Below are positions 3,935-34,270 of a stretch of DNA of 45,457 nt, one piece after another. The translations under genes and the position numbers were made by a program. A model generated the notes under the pieces. The model had not been told where the DNA came from. It did no database searches and saw nothing but the letters and a program-made list of their open reading frames with translations. The stretch is from a virus, in IMG/VR virus record IMGVR_UViG_3300044818_000001, positions 1 to 45,457 of that record; one strand, given 5' to 3'. Position 1 is the stretch's first letter. Each line of letters begins with the position of its first letter.

Positions 3935-4921
3935 TCAGGCAGCGTTACGAGCCGAGGACGTGGACTGAGCCACGATCAGGGACTCGGGACGGTACAGGCT
4001 CCAACCGGCCACACCGTACCAGCCGAGGGGCTGGAAGCGGGTCAGCTTGTCGACGACCGGACCGCGAACCGTGTGGAACTCTTCGGCCACAGCCTCAGCC
4101 AGAGCCTGCTGACCGGTGTAGTACGTGTTGAACACGCGGGTCTGGGTAGCCCCAGCACCAGCACCGGACTGCACGTTCTGAGCACGGGGAGTCTCGATGT
4201 AGCACGCACCCTCGTACTCGCCGATCTCGGCAGCCCAGATGTTACCGGCCGCAGAGTAGACGTGCGGGTCACGCCACGCAGCCGCACCGGTCTCCCGACG
4301 CAGGTCGTACGCAACCTGCGGGTGGATATACGCGGTGTAGTAGCTGTCCTTGTTCGGGTGAACCTTGTTGGTCCGGAGCTGCGTAACAGCGAACCGAGCC
4401 ATGTCCGAGTTGAACACCGAGTCCGAGTCGATCGCGGTGAGCGCGATCGGGTTGGTCGGAGTCGAACCGAAACCGTAGGACACCTTGGTCGTACCGTCGG
4501 TACGCAGGGTCTGGGTGCCCGTGGCGAGAACGTTCTGAACCAGAAGGTCGACAGAGTCGACCAGGTTCCAGGCCACCTGGTTGACGAGACCGGCAGTCAC
4601 GTCGGTGAACGAGAACAGGTCCAGCTTGTTCGAGACCAGGATGGCGTTACCGTACTCGTTGAGAGTAACGGAGACCGTGGTCGGGTTACCGGCCGCCGTG
4701 GCGTCCGGGTCGACCAGTTCGTTCAGAGGCGTGATGGCCTGAGCGAGATCCTGGTACAGCTCGAAGACGATCGAGCTACCAGGCATGGCCTGCTGAACCG
4801 GTCGCTTGTCGGCGACCATACGGAACATCGGCTGCGCGCGAAGGGCGAACTCAAGAGCGCGGTCGTACGCGGTCTGGACGAGGTTCGCCATGGCGGTAGT
4901 GCCGGTAAAGGCGTTAGCCAT
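3935..4921 (-). CDS. Major capsid protein (N4-gp56-like)
   Basis: 328 aa. The opening (MANAFTGTTAMANLVQTAYD), followed by a segment with PGSSIVFELYQDL, an early NEYGNAILVSNKL strand and HPQVAYDLRRETGAAAWRD, resembles the N4-gp56/P22-coat HK97-fold capsid family. It is preceded by a scaffold-like gene and followed by a head-fibre-like gene, the standard capsid context. Forms the icosahedral shell. Start ATG 4921 has a GAAGGAG upstream. No separate maturation protease is visible. Confidence 0.88.
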   Translation of the reverse strand: MANAFTGTTAMANLVQTAYDRALEFALRAQPMFRMVADKRPVQQAMPGSSIVFELYQDLAQAITPLNELVDPDATAAGNPTTVSVTLNEYGNAILVSNKLDLFSFTDVTAGLVNQVAWNLVDSVDLLVQNVLATGTQTLRTDGTTKVSYGFGSTPTNPIALTAIDSDSVFNSDMARFAVTQLRTNKVHPNKDSYYTAYIHPQVAYDLRRETGAAAWRDPHVYSAAGNIWAAEIGEYEGACYIETPRAQNVQSGAGAGATQTRVFNTYYTGQQALAEAVAEEFHTVRGPVVDKLTRFQPLGWYGVAGWSLYRPESLIVAQSTSSARNAA

Positions 4922-4947: not shown

Positions 4948-5430
4948 TCATGCCGTCATGTTCTGGAAACTGGCGATGAGACCCTTGATGTCATTAGCGT
5001 CGTTTACGGCTGCCTGTGCAGCCTCCATGTTGCCCACAGGAGTTCCCTCGTTGCCAGCGGCGGTCAGCCTTTCGAACTGCTGCTGCATAGATGCGGGAAG
5101 GGTGGGCTGCGTGGGGACTTCGTTGGCAGCCTGCTGGGGCTGCCCTCCACCGAACGTGGCCTTCATGGTGTCAACCCATTCCTTGGCCTTCAGTGGATCG
5201 GCGGGACCCTGGTACACAGCCTGTGCTCCAGGAACCCCGAGGGATTCGAAAACGGTAGCCATCTTCGCAGTCTGCTGCTCCTCCAGGAAGCTCGTCAGCT
5301 TCTGGTTGAGCTCATCGTTCTGCTTCTTCATGGCTTCGTACGCGTCGCGAAGAGCCTTAGGGCCGTTACCTTCGGTGTTGTTGCCCAGGTCGCTCACGTT
5401 GCCGTTGTCGTCGATACCCCAGTTGGACAT
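4948..5430 (-). CDS. Scaffolding-like protein, 160 aa
   Basis: Acidic N-terminus, a coiled-coil-prone segment at about residues 25-60 (KALRDAYEAMKKQNDELNQK), a Gln/Pro-rich middle and a helical C-terminus (NDANDIKGLIASFQNM). Length, composition and position immediately upstream of the capsid gene fit a scaffolding protein that guides procapsid assembly. GGGAGGG lies 7 nt before the ATG. The gene follows the tRNA and a leader hairpin, so its mRNA may have a processed 5' end. Confidence 0.75.
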   Translation of the reverse strand: MSNWGIDDNGNVSDLGNNTEGNGPKALRDAYEAMKKQNDELNQKLTSFLEEQQTAKMATVFESLGVPGAQAVYQGPADPLKAKEWVDTMKATFGGGQPQQAANEVPTQPTLPASMQQQFERLTAAGNEGTPVGNMEAAQAAVNDANDIKGLIASFQNMTA

Positions 5431-5465
5431 GATGTGTCCCTCCCTATAGGTGTGCAGGCCAATAT

Positions 5466-5485
5466 GCCAGCCGGGGGCGGCTGGC
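5466..5485 (-). other. Leader hairpin upstream of the scaffold gene
   Basis: GCCAGCC pairs with GGCTGGC around a 6-nt C/G loop. It lies between the tRNA and the scaffold ribosome-binding site, matching the element-hairpin-RBS-gene order seen in the early operon. A 5' stem left after tRNA processing could shield capsid-module mRNA from exonucleases; that role is inference. Confidence 0.6.
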
Positions 5486-5548
5486 CACGCTCCTGCTTCA
5501 TGATTACCGGTCTTGAATACGAGTGACTGATGCCGGTCGATCTGTCAC

Positions 5549-5620
5549 TGGTGGGCTGCCGGGATTCGAACCCGGATCGCTCCGCATCTGGAGTTATGGT
5601 ATGCCAAACCACTTCAGCCC
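5549..5620 (-). tRNA. tRNA, isotype unclear (abnormal 6-nt anticodon loop)
   Basis: 72 nt including an encoded CCA. Acceptor GGGCTG/CAGCCC, D-arm TGGT-TTGGCAT-ACCA with G18G19-like GG, T-arm CCGGG-TTCGAAT-CCCGG, discriminator A, then CCA. The anticodon stem CTCC/GGAG closes only a 6-nt loop (AGATGC), so no standard anticodon can be assigned, and the 4-nt variable region is short. It may be a decayed or specialised tRNA. It sits 6 nt after the start region of the internal-protein gene's stop side, between that gene and the scaffold gene, in the same orientation. RNase P/Z cutting here would separate capsid-module mRNA from upstream mRNA. Confidence 0.8.
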
Positions 5621-5626
5621 TACTTG

Positions 5627-6778
5627 CTACTGGGCGGACTGAGACTGACTCAGTCCTGCCTTACCTCCACCAGCGGAGCCCCCAAAGGCTCCGCGTTCCT
5701 GTCCTACGAGTCCTGCCTTCTTGGCTGCCGCACCAGCACTGGTGCCGAAGACCGACTGCTCGGACTCGTTCTGACTCCACTTCTGACCGTAGATGTTGCC
5801 GAGTTCCTTCATGGTGCCCAGTTCCTGAGCGACCTGCGAGTAGCCCTGCTGAGCCTCGGAAGCCGAAACGCCGGACGTAGCAAGCTGCTCTGCGAAGGTC
5901 TTGTCGAACGTCAGACCCTGAGAGAGTGCAGCAGAACCGACAGCGGCTGTAGCCGCAGCCTTCTGGAGGAGCGGAAGGGCCCGGTCGACATCAAGGAAGT
6001 AGGCGGCCATGTGGCCGTCGTCGATGCCCATCTGGTTCAGCGCTGCCTTGTAGTAAGGGTTGGCCAAGGCTGTAGCCTGCGTGGCCAAGTCGACTCGGGA
6101 CTGAATCTCGGTCGGACTGACGTCCTTTGCTATCCACTCCGTGAAGTCCTTGGTGCTGTCGTAGAACCCCTCAGGAAGTCCCGACTGTCGCAGAAGCTGA
6201 CGGTAGGCATTCTCGGTGTTGATGTAATCAGCGGGGGAAAGGACAGGCAGGCCATTCTTGATCCGCGTCTCGTTCGCAGCGAACCGCTGCTTGTACTCCT
6301 TCGTGTCCTGGAGGAGCAGGCTGATCGTGTCGGACGAGTAGCCGTTCTTGACGTAGTCGTAGATCTTCCCCGCCAGGCTTTCCAGCCCGTAGTTCTTGAA
6401 CACCGACTCAAGAGCCAGGAACGCATCCCTGTTGGCTCCGCTCAGCAGCTTGCTGTACTGACCACTGGACGTGTAGTACTTGTTCTGCACGTCCTTGAGC
6501 TGCTTGCCAGCGGCCGTCAGGTTGTTCGTCTGAGTCTTGATGTTCGAGTTGATCCGAGACAGCAGGGCCTTAGACCTGCTGTCCTTCTTGCCTTCGAGCG
6601 CCTTGGCCTGCTTCTTGAGTCCGGAGATCGTAGCCTGGAGGGTTCGCTGCTTCTCTTGCAGAACCTTCTGCTGGATCTTGAACTTACGCTCCTCGAAGTC
6701 CGGCGTGTCATGCCCGGTCTTCTTGGTGCTGTTCATCGCTCGATCCGCTACGTCCCTCCAGTCGCCGGGGAGAGCCAT
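5627..6778 (-). CDS. Internal virion protein, 383 aa
   Basis: Strong coiled coil at about residues 30-110 (KIQQKVLQEKQRTLQATISG). A following helical segment has GYSSDTISLLLQDTKEYKQR, related to the GYSKD...L.DTKWWK motif in the two hydrolases upstream. The C-terminus is Gly/Ser/Ala-rich (GGSAGGGKAGLSQSQSAQ). Large helical proteins in this position are ejected or internal-core proteins in podoviruses; this assignment rests on context and the shared motif. It ends next to the tRNA. Confidence 0.72.
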   Translation of the reverse strand: MALPGDWRDVADRAMNSTKKTGHDTPDFEERKFKIQQKVLQEKQRTLQATISGLKKQAKALEGKKDSRSKALLSRINSNIKTQTNNLTAAGKQLKDVQNKYYTSSGQYSKLLSGANRDAFLALESVFKNYGLESLAGKIYDYVKNGYSSDTISLLLQDTKEYKQRFAANETRIKNGLPVLSPADYINTENAYRQLLRQSGLPEGFYDSTKDFTEWIAKDVSPTEIQSRVDLATQATALANPYYKAALNQMGIDDGHMAAYFLDVDRALPLLQKAAATAAVGSAALSQGLTFDKTFAEQLATSGVSASEAQQGYSQVAQELGTMKELGNIYGQKWSQNESEQSVFGTSAGAAAKKAGLVGQERGAFGGSAGGGKAGLSQSQSAQ

Positions 6779-23231: not shown

Positions 23232-23273
23232 GTCTGACCGGCAGGCATCTACGTTCGAGCCGTAGACAGGCAC
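23232..23273 (+). ncRNA. Mini-tRNA-like element 0
   Basis: Acceptor GTCTG/CAGGC (5 bp with one G-U), 11-nt linker ACCGGCAGGCA, T-arm TCTACG-TTCGAGC-CGTAGA (6 bp, 7-nt loop), then AC. It starts 48 nt after the upstream stop. No anticodon arm. Stem sequences differ from the other copies while pairing is kept. Confidence 0.8.
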
Positions 23274-29246: not shown

Positions 29247-29254
29247 CGCAAGAA

Positions 29255-29274
29255 GCCCCGGCGAAAGCCGGGGC
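29255..29274. terminator. GNRA-capped hairpin between converging genes
   Basis: GCCCCGGC-GAAA-GCCGGGGC, 8 bp. On the minus strand it is followed by TTCTTG, which could help end the sigma-factor transcript; on the plus strand it follows the membrane-protein genes. Confidence 0.65.
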
Positions 29275-29279
29275 CCCTC

Positions 29280-34227: not shown

Positions 34228-34270
34228 GGGTGGATGGTCGCAGGACCGGTTCGACTCCGGTCCCACCCAC
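34228..34270 (+). ncRNA. Mini-tRNA-like element 8
   Basis: Acceptor GGGTGG/CCACCC (6 bp), linker ATGGTCGCAG keeping GG, T-arm GACCGG-TTCGACT-CCGGTC, then AC. It starts 7 nt after the upstream stop, as do elements 4 and 5, though it lies 7 kb away from them. No hairpin follows. Confidence 0.8.

Follow-up and report, generated by a model that had tools for sequence, protein, structure and literature searches.

Interchangeable tRNA-shaped elements as candidate RNase P punctuation in the transcripts of Streptomyces phages

A 72-nt tRNA-like element located upstream of the scaffold and capsid genes of a 45-kb virus record probably acts as a tRNA-shaped RNase P site in the late mRNA, an interchangeable punctuation mark whose cleavage is predicted from comparative sequence evidence. 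The window (the whole 45,457-nt stretch that was analyzed) has its kin among the Streptomyces podoviruses of the Beephvirinae, and carries late genes on the minus strand and early genes on the plus strand. Eight related elements punctuate the early gene block, and the commonest type, a mini-tRNA of about 40 nt, is an RNA family undescribed so far and absent from Rfam 15. We lean towards the broader reading that actinophages carry these undescribed, mobile 40-nt mini-tRNAs interchangeably with tRNAs and tRNA arrays, as marks at which host RNase P would split polycistronic transcripts.

The tRNA-like element upstream of the scaffold gene

The element and its neighboring genes were assigned as follows.

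3935-4921, minus strand: capsid gene
4948-5430, minus strand: scaffold-protein gene (phrog_7813; the homologue in phage Dennebes is annotated 'scaffolding protein')
5549-5620, minus strand: tRNA-like element, 72 nt, assigned from fold and sequence
5620-5615 / 5558-5553, minus strand: acceptor of the element, 6 bp, GGGCUG/CAGCCC
5575-5559, minus strand: T-arm of the element, CCGGG/CCCGG with loop UUCGAAU
5552, minus strand: discriminator A of the element
5551-5549, minus strand: encoded CCA of the element
between 5621 and 5620, minus strand: predicted RNase P cut
5627-6778, minus strand: gene upstream of the element (phrog_8424, function unknown; homologue of RosePharie gp13)

The 5' part of the element reads GGGCUG AA-GUGGU-UUGGCAU-ACCAU-AA-CUCC-AGAUGC-GGAG-CGAU and the 3' part CCGGG-UUCGAAU-CCCGG CAGCCC A-CCA. 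The hallmarks of tRNA that it carries are a D-arm with GG (UUGGCAU), a T-arm of the form UUCRANN (UUCGAAU) and a 3' ACCA, and its MFE fold reproduces all arms (-29.1 kcal/mol, z -2.6). The initial annotation of a tRNA with D-arm, T-arm, encoded CCA and a 6-nt anticodon loop was thus confirmed by sequence and fold, except that the acceptor has 6 bp and not the usual 7, and the location ahead of the scaffold and capsid genes was likewise borne out. The element lacks the 7-nt anticodon loop with U33 of a tRNA: the anticodon-type stem has 4 bp and closes a 6-nt loop, AGAUGC, without U33. Because of this loop no normal anticodon can be presented, and the element, for which there is no anticodon call, cannot decode. 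ARAGORN, one of two programs that the initial annotation had named for an isotype call, rejected the element and reported no tRNA genes over the window. The Rfam tRNA model (RF00005) scored it at 21.1 bits, below the gathering cut-off of 29, and the best Rfam score, 23.7 bits for mascRNA-menRNA (RF01684), was below the cut-off of 42.5; at gathering and at relaxed thresholds Rfam returned no family for this element or for the minis described below. The stop codon of the upstream gene lies 6 nt ahead of the element, and since a search between the genes for a sigma-70-like promoter found none, co-transcription is plausible.

Conservation and exchange among relatives

The position of the element, hereafter called the slot, was compared in 37 records: the window, 26 viral contigs (scaffold-gene relatives with slot sequence) and 10 cultured Beephvirinae. 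An acceptor/T-arm-type end followed by CC(A/G) was present in all 37, about 110-120 nt ahead of the scaffold start (a different start is annotated in one record). Records L008 and L014 failed the strict acceptor/T-arm script and were assigned from separate folds. The bodies found in the slot were of the following types.

tRNA-Met: L007, L009, L013, L025
tRNA-Asn: L011, L016, L022-24
tRNA-Ile(tat): L004
array of 14-23 tRNAs ending in tRNA-Val: L001, L027-38
aberrant tRNA: window, L017, L003, L005, L008, L010
40-nt mini: L006, L012, L018-21
nearly bare acceptor/T hairpin: L014-15

The slot minis listed all match the pattern of the mini class. Among the aberrant tRNAs, the anticodon arm is absent from L003 and L010, and L005 has a related element with a loop of 8 nt. 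Because minis and a bare hairpin, both without an anticodon, occur in the slot, decoding is not the shared slot function. In L007, L009, L011 and L016 a GC hairpin is often seen between the stop codon and the real slot tRNA; once cleavage has occurred, such a hairpin could shield the upstream mRNA at its 3' end.

A tree of the scaffold proteins from the slot records was used as a test for swapping. L005 (aberrant) and L007 (tRNA-Met) are sisters with support of 100/100 and branch lengths of 0.02, the aberrant L008 groups with the mini-bearing L012 at 100/97, and L016 (tRNA-Asn) adjoins the mini-bearing L018-21 at 92/90. The window element is identical to that of the L017/G002 phage contig at 71 of 72 positions, the 6-nt loop included, with flanks that are 56-81% identical, and the window and L017 fall in different scaffold clades despite their common element. 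Since near-identical scaffold neighbors carry different bodies, the body is a cassette that is exchanged between the stop codon and the CCA, with only the RNase P-type end kept among close relatives.

None of the array or slot tRNAs sampled exceeded 62% identity to the window element, and an origin from one of the array tRNAs of cultured phages was rejected on these grounds. An exact search with the D-arm word of the element returned only the phage of L017 and an unrelated sequence without a tRNA-like structure.

A family of mini-tRNAs

Words from the D-loop and T-arm of the slot element had been noted as recurring in the early operon. As single words with mismatches allowed, TGGCATAC and GGTTCGAATC are barely above chance; because single words are near chance, repeats of TGGCATAC and TTCGA were dropped as evidence and the argument was shifted to whole elements, for which recurrence does go beyond chance. 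A structural scan of the window found eight acceptor/T-arm elements on the plus strand, between 23232 and 34268, together with the slot element, and none in 20 shuffles. The scores given below are from R1, a covariance model whose members score 44-68 bits and for which noise stays below 23 bits.

23232-23271, plus strand: mini tRNA-like, R1 56.1 bits
24289-24328, plus strand: mini tRNA-like, R1 65.3 bits
24678-24717, plus strand: mini tRNA-like, R1 62.3 bits
25199-25238, plus strand: mini tRNA-like, R1 62.9 bits
25877-25916, plus strand: mini tRNA-like, R1 61.7 bits; a 47-nt stretch is 91.5% identical, and unannotated, in phage Amela
27029-27068, plus strand: mini tRNA-like, R1 56.0 bits
29279-29339, plus strand: second degenerate full-length tRNA-like (acceptor, D-like hairpin, T-arm), with a 4-bp anticodon-type stem GGGG/CCCC and a 7-nt loop TTGATCA
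34228-34268, plus strand: second mini type, outside R1, with a 6-bp acceptor, 10-nt linker ATGGTCGCAG and T-loop TTCGACT

Six of the eight share one plan of about 40 nt, consisting of a 5-bp acceptor, an 11-nt linker NNNGGCANNCN, a 6-bp T-stem and a 7-nt T-loop, and are matched by R1 at 56-65 bits. A strong GC hairpin (29250-29276) lies directly ahead of the full-length element. The second mini class, with its 6-bp acceptor, 10-nt linker ATGGTCGNAG and TTCGACT, was also seen in Endor1 (48559-48599) and in L082, L090 and L146.

Further copies were retrieved from viral contigs with a pattern placed on the linker and loop only, in fixed register, which gave 82 distinct copies. All five acceptor pairs, for which this pattern does not select, form in 75 of the 82 (with partners shuffled, mean 9.3 and maximum 20 of 1000), which marks the minis as genuine RNA folds. 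In the structural scan, stem covariation was to some extent selected for; the linker/T-loop pairs and the 3' flank positions were not. Mutual information over 67 non-redundant copies revealed tertiary covariation between linker positions L2 and L8 (A-U, C-G, G-C), between L9 and T-loop 60 (A-U, G-C, C-G, U-A), and between linker 4 and T-loop 55 (18-55), which are G-U or change jointly to A-G. Linker G5 with T-loop C56, and linker C10 with T-loop G59, are invariant. The covariation suggests that the linker folds as a one-pair D-loop docked on the T-loop in the manner of the tRNA elbow (G18-U55, G19-C56), and that it would add a 2-bp knot to T-loop 59-60.

The slot tRNA had been proposed as an ancestor type of the minis. 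The results do not support this: R1 gave no match to the slot element (5549-5620), which is without the mini tertiary network (G59, L2-L8, L9-60), and unrelated siphophages of the Arquatrovirinae carry minis too. Minis replace the slot tRNA in relatives, which points to functional equivalence and not to descent. Nor did R1 match Manuel or FlowerPower, two cultured phages with arrays. The open-access literature on tRNA-like punctuation in phages contained nothing on these elements; intergenic stem-loops reportedly mentioned in papers of the 1990s on the phiC31 early region could be the same.

RNase P determinants and proposed mechanism

Flank conservation was measured over 155 mini contexts, and pairing of -1 with 73 over 135 distinct cores. 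Outside the helices, conservation is confined to positions -1, 73 and 74, with at most 0.5 bit from position 75 on. Position -1 carries 0.88 bit and is U in 1 of 155 contexts, position 73 is a purine in 154 and position 74 is C in 154. None of the 135 cores has an N-1:N73 pair (shuffled mean 5.5, p 0.0005). The conserved C74 speaks against a main role for RNase Z at these ends. The slot element has the features of an RNase P substrate as well, namely an acceptor/T-arm stack with G1-C72, a 3' ACCA that fits R73-C74-C75, and an unpaired N-1:N73 (A-1/A73). Conservation does not extend to C75 in the early minis, which have T or G in place of C; its loss would weaken the third RCCA pair and is the weakest point of the RNase P reading.

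Bacterial RNase P reads N-1 (A248/N-1), G1-C72 and R73-C74-C75 ('RCCA'), the last paired with GGU of its RNA; position -1 is often not U in some bacteria, and hairpins of acceptor plus T-arm are efficient substrates (PMC11143913). The enzyme clamps the elbow by stacking onto G19-C56, and RNase Z is tied to CCA-less precursors (PMC4810234). Because the conserved positions are RNase P contacts, the slot element and the minis were read as RNase P punctuation.

In the proposed mechanism, host RNase P would recognize three features, namely the acceptor/T-arm stack, the elbow formed by D-loop and T-loop, and the terminal R73-C74(-C75), and would cut before G1 (5621|5620 in the window). The cut would split the mRNA of the upstream gene from that of scaffold and capsid; the latter would then begin with the folded tRNA-like element and continue, right after the CCA, into a pseudoknot/hairpin leader. 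The tRNA body would be dispensable, with genuine tRNAs, arrays, undecodable tRNAs, 40-nt minis and bare hairpins serving as interchangeable cassettes; a mini would supply acceptor and T-arm, with no anticodon, and its knotted linker of 11 nt would restore the elbow. In the early operon, mini-tRNAs that closely follow stop codons would provide the same punctuation. The cut at the slot, the fate of both products and any later trimming on the 3' side are inferred. The suggestion of the initial annotation that the element may serve mRNA processing more than decoding has therefore gained comparative support (37 of 37 slots, switching bodies, RNase P determinants kept) that falls short of proof. If the proposal is true, phages keep some of their tRNAs for mRNA processing and not for translation, and the tRNAs or relics that some phages retain at fixed places have a testable reason in selection on shape, not decoding. 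The mini would perhaps be the smallest natural tRNA-elbow mimic with tertiary contacts backed by covariation, and useful for RNase P biology.

The scaffold leader

The RNA between the CCA and the scaffold start contains the following features.

5506-5548, minus strand: H-type pseudoknot, beginning at the first base after the CCA
5548-5544 / 5527-5523, minus strand: pseudoknot helix P1, GTGAC/GTCAC
5537-5533 / 5510-5506, minus strand: pseudoknot helix P2, ACCGG/CCGGT
5454-5496, minus strand: GC-rich stem-loop of the scaffold leader, outer GCAGG..CCTGC, inner GCCAGCC/GGCTGGC
5444-5438, minus strand: scaffold Shine-Dalgarno (SD), GGGAGGG

A hairpin and RBS had been placed after the tRNA; both are real, and the structure is larger than was said, comprising an H-type pseudoknot, the hairpin and the SD. 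MFE folding of the leader alone was not significant (z -0.8), which a pseudoknot would lead one to expect, and covariation was used instead. P2 pairs 2-5 are kept throughout the 28 unique leaders, and three of these pairs show compensatory changes; P1 is present in all 28 with differing sequences (mean helix score 5.86, compared with 4.42 and a maximum of 4.91 for shuffled leaders). The C-rich hairpin loop complements the SD in most relatives, as CUCCC/GGGAG or as UUCCCUAG/CUAGGAG, as read from the alignment. The pseudoknot and hairpin (5506-5548, 5438-5496) resemble a new RNA regulator that acts in cis on scaffold translation, and the leader probably controls that translation. It forms a module of its own, because a distant relative, phage ct2KA10 (L039), has kept the pseudoknot and hairpin without a tRNA-like element. 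A theta/HDV-like ribozyme was considered for the leader and rejected; the nested double pseudoknot with P3 was not found, and few nucleotides lie between the 5' strand of P2 and the 3' strand of P1 in the 28 leaders.

Alternative explanations

The leader raises the alternative that the tRNA-like element is part of a larger regulator in the scaffold 5' UTR, made up of the pseudoknot and an SD-sequestering hairpin, which it would stabilize or cap with the help of tRNA-binding proteins and with no cut by RNase P. Such a regulator would agree with a CCA that in nearly all relatives directly borders P1 of the covarying pseudoknot and with a hairpin loop that complements the SD, but it is made doubtful by the ct2KA10 leader, which stands without a tRNA-like, by the minis, which precede many unrelated genes with differing downstream hairpins, and by conservation that stops at R73-C74, the RNase P contact. 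The pseudoknot could also be imagined as a self-cleaving ribozyme releasing the 3' end of the tRNA, since P1 starts right after the CCA as in the tRNA-linked, HDV-like theta ribozymes (PMC10879173). This is scarcely credible given that the HDV-like P3 hairpin has no room, that the knot of L039 occurs without a tRNA, and that no Rfam ribozyme matched.

Other alternatives concern the tRNA-like element itself. It might be a decaying relic, a functionless pseudo-tRNA left after loss of a 14-23-tRNA array, insofar as arrays occupy the syntenic place in cultured relatives and the element fails tRNA criteria. Preservation of the acceptor/T-arm/CC end in all 26 metagenomic relatives, near-identity (71/72, loop included) with a phage whose flanks have diverged to 56-81%, the 62% ceiling on similarity to any sampled array or slot tRNA, and minis without an anticodon arm in the same place make this unlikely. 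The same minis and bare hairpins, together with L003 and L010, whose elements also lack that arm, render quite improbable an unusual functional tRNA or decoy that would resist or titrate host anticodon nucleases as an anti-defense, even though the related element of L005 has an 8-nt loop and phage tRNAs with altered anticodon loops have been proposed to evade tRNA-cutting defenses (cited in PMC11536984). Swaps that are precise between stop codon and CCA could reflect a recombination or attachment hot spot at the DNA level; compensatory changes that preserve RNA pairs, tertiary ones included, an orientation that always follows transcription, and the many copies per phage leave very little likelihood for such a role.

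Relation to known systems

Punctuation by RNase P has several partial precedents. RNase P processes tRNA-like structures in phage C4 and M3 RNAs, pre-tmRNA, the TYMV tRNA-like end and polycistronic mRNAs (PMC11143913). Common to these substrates and the phage elements is an acceptor/T-arm-like fold for cutting a non-tRNA transcript, with the cleavage being predicted here; the phage elements differ in forming a swappable cassette at a fixed position before the capsid operon, and in that a dedicated 40-nt fold is scattered in many copies per genome. The mascRNA-menRNA family (RF01684) is similarly tRNA-like, with reduced D and anticodon arms, within a long transcript, but it is eukaryotic and needs both RNase P and RNase Z, whereas the phage element lies between protein genes. 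In mitochondrial tRNA punctuation, tRNAs between genes allow processing enzymes to cut out the mRNAs; those tRNAs decode, whereas the phage marks are mostly undecodable stubs that host RNase P would serve. Theta ribozymes (PMC10879173) share a pseudoknot right after a phage tRNA 3' end, but the phage leader has neither P3 nor the double-nested knot and occurs without a tRNA too. The Beephvirinae arrays (Manuel, FlowerPower, Immanuel3, RosePharie, Abafar) share the genomic slot and the downstream leader, and hold 14-23 canonical tRNAs where the window has one undecodable element; these arrays have so far been explained as anti-defense (PMC11536984).

Occurrence of minis in cultured phages and bacterial genomes

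Minis were found in the window, in the phage of L017 and, unannotated, in cultured temperate Camvirus siphophages; the family has thus been missed by annotation tools though present in cultured, genetically tractable Streptomyces phages. The structural scan counted 7 minis in Joe, 8 in Amela and 9 in Endor1. Of these 24, all but one lie wholly between genes as annotated in GenBank (23 minis), on the sense strand, compared with 5-7% of the time for a random 40-mer in the same mini regions. The distance from the upstream stop to the mini is mostly 6-18 nt (two are at 112-134 nt), and that from the mini to the next start is 33-62 nt, except for one at 14 nt. The 30 nt located 3' of the minis are more structured than shuffled sequence (mean -11.3 versus -6.2 kcal/mol), and the order there is a hairpin, then the RBS. 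In Joe (L196), Amela (L197) and Endor1 (L198) the minis occupy gaps before an RBS and the next gene in the right-hand, minus-strand gene block.

At least one R1 match was present in 5 of 246 Actinomycetes genomes, and two were present in one Hymenobacter genome. Because R1 clusters occur in bacterial genomes that include a Bacteroidota, the mini family may extend beyond actinophages. The clusters of matches lie at C9:94006-94930 in G012 (Hymenobacter) and at C34:206881-207269 in G009 (Amycolatopsis). In Sitrop (L206, 41493-41575), an annotated tRNA-Arg overlaps a CDS in the gene block of this Camvirus relative where minis occur, and is possibly a mis-called mini region.
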